Both the position numbers and the translations under genes were made by a program. From assembly GCA_944323155.1 (NCBI GenBank), contig CALURL010000001.1, positions 179,256 through 243,255 of the forward strand: DNA of 64,000 nt, in the 5' to 3' direction. Positions 6,132-41,222 of this stretch are shown here, one piece after another. Source of the DNA: Candidatus Gastranaerophilales bacterium. GTDB taxonomy: Bacteria; Cyanobacteriota; Vampirovibrionia; Gastranaerophilales; Gastranaerophilaceae. Position 1 is the first letter of the stretch. Every line of letters starts with the position of its first letter. Under the pieces are notes generated by a model that saw only the letters and a list, made by a program, of their open reading frames with translations, was not told the origin of the DNA and searched no databases.

Positions 6132-6167
6132 AAAAAGGCGGCAACAATATTTGTTACCACCTTTTTT
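6132..6167 (+). terminator. Terminator between argS and pilin gene 1
   Basis: Interrupted stem AAAAAGGCGGCAACAA / TTGTTACCACCTTTTT with a 3-nt loop and T-run. It follows argS and overlaps the last codons of the convergent pilin gene 1, so it may work in both directions. Confidence 0.7.
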
Positions 6168-7013
6168 GAATTTCTTCGTCGCTTAAATGTAAATAATCCA
6201 TATTATGATGCTTCAATATCCAATAACCGCATGTTGCACCAGGAAACCAGTTATAAGCCCGCCGACACTGATTTTTACCACCCTGCGGAGAATCATCTAT
6301 ATTATTTGACCAGCGCGCTCCTGGAAGAATTTGCTGATAATTTGACATTGTATTAAACGATAAAAAATGTGCATCTTCGCCAAACTTATTTGGTCCCTTA
6401 TTGCCATTTAAATCAACAAAAAAATCAACTACAGTACCAGGAAAATCATAAAATACAATAGATTCCCCTGAAATTAACCTTAAAGCAGGGTATTTGTTAT
6501 AAGCACTATGAGAGTAATCTGTATCATTTTGTGAATTATCCAAATTTTTATAATAATCTTGATAAATACATTTTTTATTACTTTTACCAGCAGGACAATC
6601 AACACTAATAACTAAATAAGGTTTTAATTTGTTATAAGTGTCAACTGCAGATTTTTCCCAAGAGTCAAATGTTCCATGCTCGGGTATTGCAAAAGTATAC
6701 GCTTGATTAAGAATACTATAAACCCGCAAATACGCAGTGACAAGTTGTTTTTCTCTATATTTTTGAATGACAGAAGGGAGCGTTAAGGCAGCGACAATGC
6801 CGATTACACCGAGAGTAATTAAGACCTCAGCCAGCGTAAAGGCGGAGTTTCGCTGCAATTGATTAAAGAACCTACGTGAGCAGCATCTCCAAAGAGGGCG
6901 AGGGGATAAAAATATAGGTTGGGCTTTCAGCCCAACAAGTTCTAATATATTAGCTAAAACACGCTTTACGCGCGTGCCCCCCCCCCGATGAGCTTTCTAA
7001 AAGATTTTTTCAT
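6154..7013 (-). CDS. Phase-variable prepilin-like protein 1, OFF (G10)
   Basis: The translated start is ATG 7013, preceded by AAGGAGG. It encodes MKKSFRKLI, then a G10 tract (plus-strand C 6977-6986), then stops at TAA four codons on. The pilin frame stays open back to the tract, so 11 (or 8) Gs would give one 286-residue protein. The body has a prepilin cleavage/methylation helix SAFTLAEVLITLGVIGIVAA, a globular part with several Cys, a DLNGNKGPN loop seen in all members, and the C-terminus YLHLSDEEIQKRW shared with pilin 7. The long leader between tract and helix includes a perfect hairpin (6916-6937). The alternative is translation from the internal TTG at 6858, which lacks a good ribosome site. 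Confidence 0.8.
6916..6937. repeat. Perfect palindrome inside the leader of pilin gene 1
   Basis: GTTGGGCTTTCAGCCCAAC lies between the G tract and the prepilin helix. It looks like an inserted palindromic element that kept the pilin frame open. Confidence 0.6.
6977..6986 (-). repeat. Homopolymer G10 tract in pilin gene 1
   Basis: Ten Cs on the plus strand, ten Gs in the coding strand, nine codons after the start. At ten the frame reads GGG GGG GGG GCA CGC GCG TAA; at eleven it reads through to the prepilin domain. Confidence 0.95.
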
Positions 7014-7133
7014 ACTTATCCTCCTTATTTCTTATTTAAATATATCAAATTAAAAACGAATTTGCAAGAAGAATTATACGTAATAAACAAAAAATATATA
7101 TGTGCTAAAATGATAATATCTTGGAAATATACA

Positions 7134-7679
7134 ATGACAGACATAGAATTTTTTAATAATTTTACGGTAATAGATATTGAAACAACAGGCCTGAACCCTA
7201 TAAAGGATAATATAATAGAATTATCTGCAATACGGGTACGAGAAAACATTGTGGTCTCAACATTTTCCAAGCTTGTAAATCCACAAAAAGAACTTCATCC
7301 TTTCATCTCAAAGCTAACAGGAATTAATAACACCATGCTTTCTCAAGCTAAATTAGTAAATGAAGTGCTTCCAGAGTTTTTAGAATTTGTGGGAGATGAT
7401 GTAATACTCGGACACAATATAAGGTTTGACATAAGCTTTATTAATCAAAAATCTTTAACTATACTAAATCGGCCGTTTATAAATAAAAATACCGATACAT
7501 TAAAACTATCAAGAAAGTTAAAAATTCAATCGCAAAATCATAAACTAAAGACACTTGCGGATTTTTACCGGATAACCCAGGGTAGAATGCACAGAGGGCT
7601 AGAAGACTGCCGCATAACGCTCGAAGTTTACAAACATCTGCGTCAAGAAGCAATTGAAAAAAATCTTAAATTTGTGTAA
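7134..7679 (+). CDS. DnaQ-like 3'-5' exonuclease (DEDDh)
   Basis: Predicted DEDD-superfamily exonuclease like the proofreading subunit of DNA polymerase III or the PolC exonuclease. Exo I is FTVIDIETTG (Asp14, Glu16 counted from 7134), Exo II is ILGHNIRFDISFI, and Exo III is HRGLEDCRITLEVY with the DEDDh His. It is a single domain of ~181 residues with no polymerase or clamp-binding tail visible. The start is uncertain: ATG 7134 gives the most family-like N-terminus, but ATG 7110 and TTG 7062 are in frame. tRNA-Arg follows 16 bases after the stop. Could be DNA or RNA specific. Confidence 0.85.
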   Translation: MTDIEFFNNFTVIDIETTGLNPIKDNIIELSAIRVRENIVVSTFSKLVNPQKELHPFISKLTGINNTMLSQAKLVNEVLPEFLEFVGDDVILGHNIRFDISFINQKSLTILNRPFINKNTDTLKLSRKLKIQSQNHKLKTLADFYRITQGRMHRGLEDCRITLEVYKHLRQEAIEKNLKFV

Positions 7680-7695
7680 AATAATCATATAATAT

Positions 7696-7769
7696 GTGCT
7701 TGTAGCTCAGCTGGATAGAGTGTTGGTCTCCGAAGCCGAAGGTCACGGGTTCAAATCCCGTCAAGCACA
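7696..7769 (+). tRNA. tRNA-Arg (anticodon CCG)
   Basis: Cloverleaf of 74 nt: acceptor GTGCTTG/CAAGCAC, D-arm GCTCAGCTGGATAGAGT, anticodon stem TTGGT/GCCGA with loop CTCCGAA (CCG at 34-36), T-arm ACGGGTTCAAATCCCGT. No CCA is encoded. A T7 run begins directly after the tRNA. Confidence 0.95.
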
Positions 7770-7809
7770 TTTTTTTCATTTTTAAATTAACATTGCAATA
7801 AATAAATTT

Positions 7810-39347: not shown

Positions 39348-39362
39348 TTATTTTCCTTATAT

Positions 39363-40238
39363 TTATTTTTTACAAAGAGGAAATCCCATTTCTTCTCTTT
39401 GGGCTACATACAATCTTGCAACGGCTGAAGCCATTGTTCTTACTCTATTTATAAAATTAATTCTTTCGTCTTTGCTTATAACGCCTCTTGCATCTAACAA
39501 ATTGAATGTGTGAGAGCATTTCAAGACATAGTCATATGCAGGAAGCACCAGTTTTGCATTAATACAATTATCCACTTCCTTTTGATACAAATCAAACATT
39601 GTAAATAAACTTTTTGCATCAGATACTTCAAAATTATATTTAGACTGTTCAATTTCATTTTGTAAATAAATATCGCCGTATTTCAGGCTGTCATTCCACA
39701 TAATGTCATAAACAGATTCCTTGTTTTGCAAATACATTGCAATTCTTTCTAAACCATAAGTAAGTTCAAGCGCAACTGGTTTAACTTCAACACCGCCAAC
39801 CTGTTGAAAATATGTAAATTGAGTAATTTCCATACCATCAAGCCAAACTTCCCAGCCTACACCAGCAGCTCCTAAGGTTGGAGATTCCCAGTTATCTTCA
39901 ACAAATCTAACGTCATGTTCTTTCAGGTCAATTCCCATAGCTTCCAAGCTTTTCAAATAAAGTTCCTGAGCGTTATCAGGGGATGGTTTTAAGATAACCT
40001 GGAACTGGTAATAATGCCCTAATCTATTTGGATTTTCTCCGTATCTAGCATCAGTTGGACGTCTGCAAGGTTCAATCATTGCCGTATTCCATGGTTCAGG
40101 GCCGAGTGCACGCAAAAACGTTGCAGGGTTCATAGTAGAAGCACCTTTTTCAATATCATAAGGCTGCTGAATTATACAACCATAATCTGACCAAAATTTT
40201 TGTAAATTAAAAACCAATTCTTGAAAATTTAATGCCAT
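39363..40238 (-). CDS. glyQ: Glycine-tRNA ligase alpha subunit
   Basis: Alpha subunit of the bacterial alpha2beta2 GlyRS, which holds the class II catalytic core. The 291-residue protein has FQELVFNLQKFWSDYGCIIQQPYD, ATFLRALGPEPW, the motif 2 region EPCRRPTDARYGENPNRLGHYYQFQVI and TYGLERIAMYLQ. Normally glyS (beta subunit) follows directly; here two permeases follow and no glyS is in the window. ATG 40238 follows GGAATA. A hairpin with an A-run lies 40-60 bp upstream. No T-box is seen. Confidence 0.95.
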   Translation of the reverse strand: MALNFQELVFNLQKFWSDYGCIIQQPYDIEKGASTMNPATFLRALGPEPWNTAMIEPCRRPTDARYGENPNRLGHYYQFQVILKPSPDNAQELYLKSLEAMGIDLKEHDVRFVEDNWESPTLGAAGVGWEVWLDGMEITQFTYFQQVGGVEVKPVALELTYGLERIAMYLQNKESVYDIMWNDSLKYGDIYLQNEIEQSKYNFEVSDAKSLFTMFDLYQKEVDNCINAKLVLPAYDYVLKCSHTFNLLDARGVISKDERINFINRVRTMASAVARLYVAQREEMGFPLCKK

Positions 40239-40276
40239 ATCTATTATTCCAATATATTGTACTGTTTACACTTTTT

Positions 40277-40298
40277 AGCAGGCACTAGAATACCTGCT
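40277..40298 (-). terminator. Hairpin between pilin gene 7 and glyQ
   Basis: Minus-strand stem AGCAGG / CCTGCT with a 10-nt loop. The T-run is absent (AAAAAG follows), so it may be a weak terminator of pilin 7 or a leader hairpin of glyQ. Confidence 0.35.
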
Positions 40299-40410
40299 AT
40301 TACACGCTTAATTTATACTACGTCTAACAAATTTAAAAATCAAATTTATGTTTAAAAATATTAAGCAAGAAATGTGTTGCGATATTATAGAAAAACTTAA
40401 CTATAGAATA

Positions 40411-41222
40411 TTACCACACACCTCCATTCCATCTTTTCTTAACTTCATCAAAAGGCAGGTGAAGATAATCCTTATTACGATGTCTAACTATCCAAAATCC
40501 GCACGAAACACCTGCAGTCCAACTATGAGCGCTATTAACATCACAATAATTTGCAGTATCAGTCCAAAAATTTTCAAAATTTCCCGGTTTTAGCCGTTCA
40601 GGATTATTATAATCGAATGAAAAGAAAAACTGATCTTTGCCTAAAGTATTTGGGCCTTTTTTAGAATTTAAATCTACAGTAAAATCCCCATTGCCATATC
40701 CAAATACAATACATTCTCCGGATTTTAAACTAACCGCAGCTCTAGCTCAATATTCGCCATTAGAATTTGATGAATATTCTGTTCCATCAAGATAACGTGA
40801 TTTTTCCGGCCAGCAATTCTTCTTTCCAGTGTTAGCCCAATTGTCATTTTTGGGAAGAAAAGCCTCATTGACTTCAATATACGGTTTTATCATATATTCG
40901 TATAATTCCTTAGGCTGCGCAGCACCGCGTCTATTAGAACCCGTATCTGAAACATTAAAAATAGCCCAGTTCTCAAATGTGCCGTATTCACCCTGAACTC
41001 TACGGTATGCATTTTCTAAAACAGAATATACACGTAAATATGAAGTAACTAAAACCTTTTCTTGGTATTTAGCAATAAGAGTAGGTAGAGTTAATGCTGC
41101 GACAACACCTATGACTCCAAGAGTAATTAAAACCTCAGCAAGCGTAAATCCGCAAAAACGACACCAAAAGGAGACTAAGCCTGTGCCCCCCCCCCGTGAA
41201 CTAACCTTAATAATTTTTTCAT
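40411..41222 (-). pseudogene. Prepilin-like gene 7: OFF (G10) and with a TGA nonsense codon
   Basis: ATG 41222 follows AAGGAGTGC. MKKLLRLVH precedes G10 and GCA CAG GCT TAG. With 11 Gs it would read GGGGTGLVSFWCRFCGFTLAEV and run through LPTLIAKYQEKVLVTSYLRVYSVLENAY (shown in parts). At 40747-40749 the frame meets TGA (context SNSNGEY-stop-ARAAV), then continues through VDLNSKKGPNTLGKD to YLHLPFDEVKKRWNGGVW and TAA 40411. TGA is a likely TGG-to-TGA change. Other genes use TGA as stop, so recoding is unlikely. It is the closest relative of pilin 1. Intact it would be 270 residues. Confidence 0.85.
41186..41195 (-). repeat. Homopolymer G10 tract in pilin gene 7
   Basis: Ten Cs on the plus strand, nine codons after the start; OFF register with TAG four codons later. 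Confidence 0.95.

Follow-up and report, generated by a model that had tools for sequence, protein, structure and literature searches.

Why should a genome carry, within 64,000 nucleotides, seven long runs of G or C, each placed just inside the start of a gene for a type IV pilin-like protein? The stretch analyzed here, hereafter called the window, spans positions 179,256 to 243,255 of contig CALURL010000001.1 from a Candidatus Gastranaerophilales bacterium, and was originally predicted to hold a seven-locus pilin repertoire switched by changes in tract length. We consider it highly probable that these poly-G/C tracts mediate slipped-strand phase variation of a pilin repertoire that is OFF by default. 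The repertoire is not one of seven loci, as there are ~70 in the genome, and the window shows 7 of them. Several features carry this reading: the tract itself, the nearly constant spacing between it and an ATG with a Shine-Dalgarno (SD) sequence, the way tract length sets the frame, unequal lengths in near-identical copies, the open frames of OFF genes and mostly low dN/dS, and matches to a prepilin peptidase and PilB/PilT-type ATPases.

Tracts and reading frames of the pilin-type genes

All seven predicted tracts were recovered (Table 1). On the plus strand of the window each reads as C, six with ten bases and one, at 36095-36105, with eleven. As had been described, the tract is G in the sense direction in six of the genes and C in one; the six lie on the minus strand, and the one, at 20928, on the plus strand. 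No further G/C run of 7 or more bases was found in the 64 kb, in agreement with the original prediction. Runs of at least 9 bases number 7 in the window, versus 0.01 expected under a first-order Markov model. The G/C runs of at least 5 bases have a bimodal distribution, with 11 of length 5, one of length 6, none of lengths 7 to 9, six of length 10 and one of length 11. A/T runs of at least 9 bases, by comparison, are strongly depleted (1 seen versus ~16 expected), while G/C runs are enriched.

An SD-ATG lies upstream of every tract, at distances of 27, 33, 27, 29, 27, 27 and 27 nt in genes 1 to 7, and the prepilin helix is located 3' of the tract in all seven. Read from this start at the assembled length, translation of six of the genes ends just past the tract, after 15-17 residues, and only the 11-base tract at 36095-36105 leads from the SD-ATG into the pilin. 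The claim that ten bases mean OFF thus stands for these six short products, with a qualification at gene 4, which has a second ATG (20925) directly next to the tract; at length 10 this ATG shares the frame of the pilin (an open reading frame of 318 amino acids). Because of this second ATG, length 10 is perhaps no strict OFF state in gene 4, and lengths 10 and 11 may both give a product, from different starts; an SD sequence was found at the first ATG (20899) only. The companion claim, that a tract of 11 joins the start to an open pilin frame in every gene, is borne out by the tract at 36095 and needs a qualification at genes 5 and 7, which carry in-frame stops in the mature part. Both genes look damaged because of these stops, which reflect either early decay or sequence error. 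The prepilin N-methylation domain PF07963 was matched at E ≤ 1e-3 in four of the five window pilins scanned, genes 5 and 7 being outside that scan; gene 2 had no match at E 1e-3 in the single-protein Pfam scan.

The same arrangement recurs across the genome to which the window belongs (G000; 1.79 Mb in 34 contigs, 99.66% complete). It holds 91 G/C tracts of at least 9 bases: three of 9, 74 of 10, 11 of 11, two of 12 and one of 14. There are 84 matches to PF07963, 69 with a tract no more than 700 nt upstream and 15 without. Twelve of the latter were read; in 11 of them a codon that could serve as start lies 4-30 residues ahead of the helix, accompanied by an SD sequence in five of the 11, and one has no such codon. 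Identified by helix, the 91 tracts yield 71 tract pilins, 68 of them with an ATG and SD sequence, and the spacer between ATG and tract in these 68 is 27 nt in 49 cases, 30 nt in nine and 29 nt in four. A tract set to 11 bases gives an open frame as far as the helix in 67 of 68 genes. Set to 10, it does so in 0 of 68, and in 63 of them translation meets a stop no more than 6 codons on; in shuffled local DNA, a stop within 7 codons has a probability of 0.43. As assembled, eight of the 68 are ON, 57 are one base short and three are one base long. Among the 55 G-sense OFF genes, 41 have no ATG, GTG or TTG from tract to helix. A separate reading of the tracts, which required an SD sequence and at least 60 open codons, retained 74 of the 91 in this genome and 7 of 20 in genome G002.

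These counts suggest how a switch would work. Slipped-strand mispairing would lengthen or shorten the tract at the 5' end of each pilin-type gene, and of every three successive lengths only one would put the SD-ATG in frame with the pilin. Since the usual length is one base off the ON length, most genes would be OFF by default. Switching would be reversible within a population, and each cell would display a small, changing subset of the ~70 pilins.

As a separate observation, CTCCTT, the complement of the SD sequence, occurs within 40 nt after the tract in 21 of the 91 tracts, and CTCC in 34 (for example at window positions 14740-14790), which makes an mRNA hairpin over the start possible, judging by sequence complementarity.

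Tract length in near-identical copies and related genomes

A switch of this kind predicts that tract length will differ between otherwise similar genes. Among the 205 tracts compared, 23 locus pairs, which are not independent of one another, have flanks at least 85% identical, and tract length differs in 13 of the 23. Six of these 13 come from one cluster of four loci in G001, a genome of the same genus as the window. L076 and L080, from two species and with flanks 98-100% identical, have tracts of 12 and 13 bases; the paralogs L152 and L157 have 11 and 10; and a tandem pair in L129 has 10 and 12.

Database proteins give a similar picture. P0099 and P0100, from other contigs, are 99.66% identical over 293 residues and start with MPPPR and MLNREDLRVCPPPR, respectively, which reads as translation through 10 versus 11 Cs within a leader resembling that of gene 4. 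At least three consecutive glycines or prolines occur in the leader of 60 of the 240 database matches listed. P0121, 98% identical to the ON gene 6, starts at an internal methionine, which fits the output of a gene caller applied to an OFF strain. In another group (P0162, P0168, P0178 and P0200; 94-97% identical over ~243 residues) the leader starts differ, as if leaders had been swapped.

Whole genomes also differ. The 25 tract pilins of G001 include two tracts of 9 bases, 15 of 10, four of 11 (ON) and four of 12, covering all three frame classes. In G011, which belongs to another genus of the same family, 25 of 115 tracts were read, and these peak at 12-13 bases (one of 10, one of 11, nine of 12, 12 of 13 and two of 14). 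Of the 20 tract pilins among those read, 12 have 13 bases and would be ON at 12 or 15, and four are ON at 12. The usual length is therefore one base below the ON length in G000 (10 versus 11) and one base above it in G011 (13 versus 12), and this opposite direction disfavors a fixed programmed frameshift or a uniform miscall. The original prediction had proposed comparing tract lengths in related genomes, and they do vary, in G001, in G011 and in 13 of the 23 pairs; a single fixed length everywhere is disfavored by those pairs, by P0099 and P0100, and by the frame classes of G001.

One alternative is programmed slippage on a tract fixed at ten bases: the ribosome, or RNA polymerase, would slip there and bring a constant small share of the products into the pilin frame. 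Runs of G or C can act as slippery sites, and 57 of the 68 tract pilins in G000 are indeed one base short of ON. A universal rule that the ON length is the usual length plus one would have favored such programmed frameshifting. The rule holds for 57 of the 60 OFF pilins in G000 and fails in G011 and several relatives, and we reject it. Programmed slippage is further opposed by the occurrence of three frame classes within one genome (lengths 9, 10, 11 and 12 in G001), by the length variation between near-identical copies, by G011, where 12 of 20 tract pilins sit at 13 with ON at 12 and are thus one base too long, and by the eight genes already in frame in G000. We regard it as quite unlikely.

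Homopolymers are error-prone, and all the lengths come from assemblies, so it could also be that the true length is 11 and has been called as 10. However, seven non-pilin genes of G000 (L103, L112, L115, L141, L149, L150 and L172) are open across their tract as assembled, five of them at 10 bases (L103, L112, L149, L150 and L172), versus 0 of 56 pilins at 10, and a uniform miscall cannot satisfy both. By eye, these non-pilin genes look like glycosyltransferases, a nucleotidyltransferase, a radical S-adenosylmethionine protein and a Mur-type ligase; another non-pilin gene with a 10-base tract, L158, is out of frame. G011 would require the opposite error, and P0099 and P0100 were taken from the protein database and are encoded on other contigs. 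That all tracts are really 11 is disfavored both by the length variation and by the non-pilin genes in frame at 10, and a sequencing or assembly artefact is very unlikely to explain the pattern.

Condition of the OFF genes and the pilus machinery

If most of the repertoire is OFF at any time, are the silent genes kept intact? In 56 of the 60 OFF genes the mature frame spans at least 150 codons or reaches the end of the fragment; four are short. Over 44 paralog pairs, the ratio of nonsynonymous to synonymous substitution rates (dN/dS) is 0.11-0.31 in 40, 0.83 in the pair L097/L144 and undefined in three, values that are rough because dS exceeds 1 in many pairs. In 36 of the 44, the two tracts are each 10 or 12 bases long.

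These figures bear on a third alternative, a decaying family in which duplications have propagated a leader with a G run and the majority of genes no longer function. Similar leaders do precede different pilins, and the in-frame stops in genes 5 and 7, the four short OFF genes and the ratio for L097/L144 are all as decay would have it. The long open frames kept in 56 of 60 OFF genes argue against it, as does the low dN/dS in 40 of 44 pairs, with both tracts at 10 or 12 in 36 of the 44. General decay is, in our judgment, very unlikely. Phase variation is supported instead by the frame logic in 67 of 68 genes, the length differences and the open OFF frames, with the switching itself predicted from sequence.

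The model of the product of gene 6, ON as assembled, has a predicted local distance difference test (pLDDT) score of 86.6 and consists of a low-confidence leader, an N-terminal helix (residues 28-79) and a region rich in beta structure. In a structural search its best matches, all of them weak, include type IV pilins, with low Z scores (5.3, 5.2 and 4.5). The genome has one match to the prepilin peptidase PF01478, at C6:49789, and five matches over the cut-off to PF00437, the PilB/PilT-type ATPases, one of them inside the window. The leader before the helix is up to ~100 residues long, and prepilin peptidase would cut it off; this removal may be why the leader tolerates a G run and odd insertions. 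The products would then be exported and assembled into surface filaments, as predicted from these components.

Table 1. Pilin-type genes, their tracts and a candidate pilus motor gene in the window (positions count from the first base of the window).
Feature	Coordinates	Strand	Description
Tract, pilin gene 1	6977..6986	-	G10; out of frame with ATG 7013 as assembled
Pilin gene 1	6154..7013	-	ATG 7013, helix from 6840, stop 6154; PF07963 E 1.7e-4
Tract, pilin gene 2	14779..14788	-	G10; out of frame with ATG 14821
Pilin gene 2	14010..14821	-	Helix from 14741; PF07963 over cut-off in genome scan (G000:C1:193937-193999)
Tract, pilin gene 3	17502..17511	-	G10; out of frame with ATG 17538
Pilin gene 3	16814..17538	-	Helix from 17464; PF07963 and PF20318 (DUF6613)
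Tract, pilin gene 4	20928..20937	+	C10; SD-ATG 20899 out of frame at 10
Pilin gene 4 (C-sense)	20899..21881	+	Helix from 21159; PF07963
Tract, pilin gene 5	27209..27218	-	G10; out of frame with ATG 27245
Pilin gene 5	26815..27245	-	Mature part broken by in-frame stop; homologous frame continues past stop
Tract, pilin gene 6	36095..36105	-	G11; in frame with ATG 36132, ON as assembled
Pilin gene 6	35374..36132	-	Full 252-amino-acid prepilin, PF07963
Tract, pilin gene 7	41186..41195	-	G10; out of frame with ATG 41222
Pilin gene 7	40747..41222	-	In-frame stop within mature part; frame resumes after stop
Type II/IV secretion ATPase, PilT/PilB-like	30883..31992	-	PF00437; candidate pilus motor

Distribution in the family and comparison with known systems

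To see how far the arrangement extends, we compared 79 genomes, 48 labeled as the same family (G000 included) and 31 from outside it. Tract counts in the 48 family genomes range from 0 to 128, with at least 30 in 16 of them; none of the 31 outside genomes has 30 tracts, the maximum being 22. Across the family genomes, counts of tracts and of PF07963 matches have a Spearman correlation of 0.67, where up to 90 pilin candidates were scored per genome and large pilin counts are lower bounds. The repertoire itself turns over: in matches at E 1e-20, the closest G000 relatives are 31-55% identical for the tract pilins of G001 and 33-58% for those of G002. Viral contigs yielded two relatives.

Several observations weigh against the phase-variation reading. 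As many as 74 of the 91 tracts in G000 are of equal length, which is narrower than free drift predicts; this objection is tempered by the poly-G/C tracts of Campylobacter, which also peak narrowly, at 9 (53%) and 10 (26%), in the data consulted from one survey (PMC6321876). Every tract length is an assembler's consensus. A possible start codon lies between tract and helix in 14 of the 55 G-sense OFF genes, genes 5 and 7 of the seven in the window are interrupted by in-frame stops, and to these can be added the pair L097/L144 and the rough dN/dS values. P0121 may have been cut at a contig edge, and in G011 four of the 20 tract pilins have another apparent ON register, with a doubtful start. In G009, G023 and G028, pilin matches number at least 87, at least 45 and at least 90, alongside 11, 2 and 7 tracts. 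Of the 27 tracts read in G016 (of 89), a single one precedes a pilin helix within 150 codons. Pilins and tracts are therefore not coupled everywhere, and G016 rules out a universal coupling. Finally, G000 has a MutS1 match over the cut-off and without inner stops, as 77 of the 79 genomes have matches at E 1e-3, so that MutS1 loss does not explain the instability; we reject mismatch-repair loss as its driver as regards MutS1, the component checked.

In G016, 18 of the 89 tracts are located no farther than 250 bases from the start of a contig, versus ~1.1 expected; assembly tends to break off at tracts, either because leaders are repeated or because lengths are mixed.

The best-known cases of poly-G phase variation come from host-adapted pathogens such as Neisseria, Campylobacter and Helicobacter. 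The portions of the Campylobacter phasome survey drawn on here (PMC6321876) describe in-frame G/C tracts mostly of 9-10 bases in surface-related genes of AT-rich genomes, with ON and OFF set by frame, much as in the present case; strains have 5-81 phase-variable genes at a cut-off of at least 7 bases. Unlike the situation described in those portions, where mostly genes modifying surface structures are affected, most tracts here precede pilin-type genes, and there are 91 of at least 9 bases in 1.79 Mb, likely in another phylum. In Neisseria, according to the sections used of PMC5953494, repeat-tract frame switching likewise bears on type IV pili, through pilC (G 9-20) and pglA (G 9-21), and on the multi-copy outer-membrane family opa. 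What is switched there is a pilus regulator, pilus glycosylation and Opa, whereas PilE varies by recombination with pilS, of which 23 of 607 alleles have repeats in the same sections; here ~70 pilin genes themselves bear the tract. Phase variation of pilin is also reported for Moraxella bovis, where, in the account given in part of a review (PMC11868660), the genes are switched by DNA inversion and tract length is not involved.

Our search of the literature, made at abstract level and covering few preprints and no subscription papers, found among the entries listed no such system for Gastranaerophilales, Melainabacteria or Vampirovibrionia; in the literature searched on Melainabacteria and phase variation, flagellins were the sole subject met. 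The part consulted of the same review suggests that the seeming restriction of multi-locus phase variation to pathogens is perhaps a database bias (PMC11868660).

The host lineage is probably a non-photosynthetic member of the cyanobacterial phylum that lives in the gut as a commensal. Its habitat is judged from loci sharing a neighboring gene, assigned by Pfam to the amino-acid permeases, a few of which are labeled with gut sites such as water buffalo cecum. On balance, we lean toward the view that the Gastranaerophilaceae have the largest homopolymer-switched pilin repertoires yet, with a lineage-specific default-OFF register and combinatorial antigenic variation by frame switching alone. 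Poly-G phase variation would then operate in a likely gut commensal, with the pilin genes as its direct targets, at a scale equal to or greater than that of the pathogens. If this is true, it would account for the trimming of the N-termini of these pilins by gene callers, and it would make it easy to test how surfaces are varied in commensals and which force selects for that variation, be it immunity, phages or adhesion.

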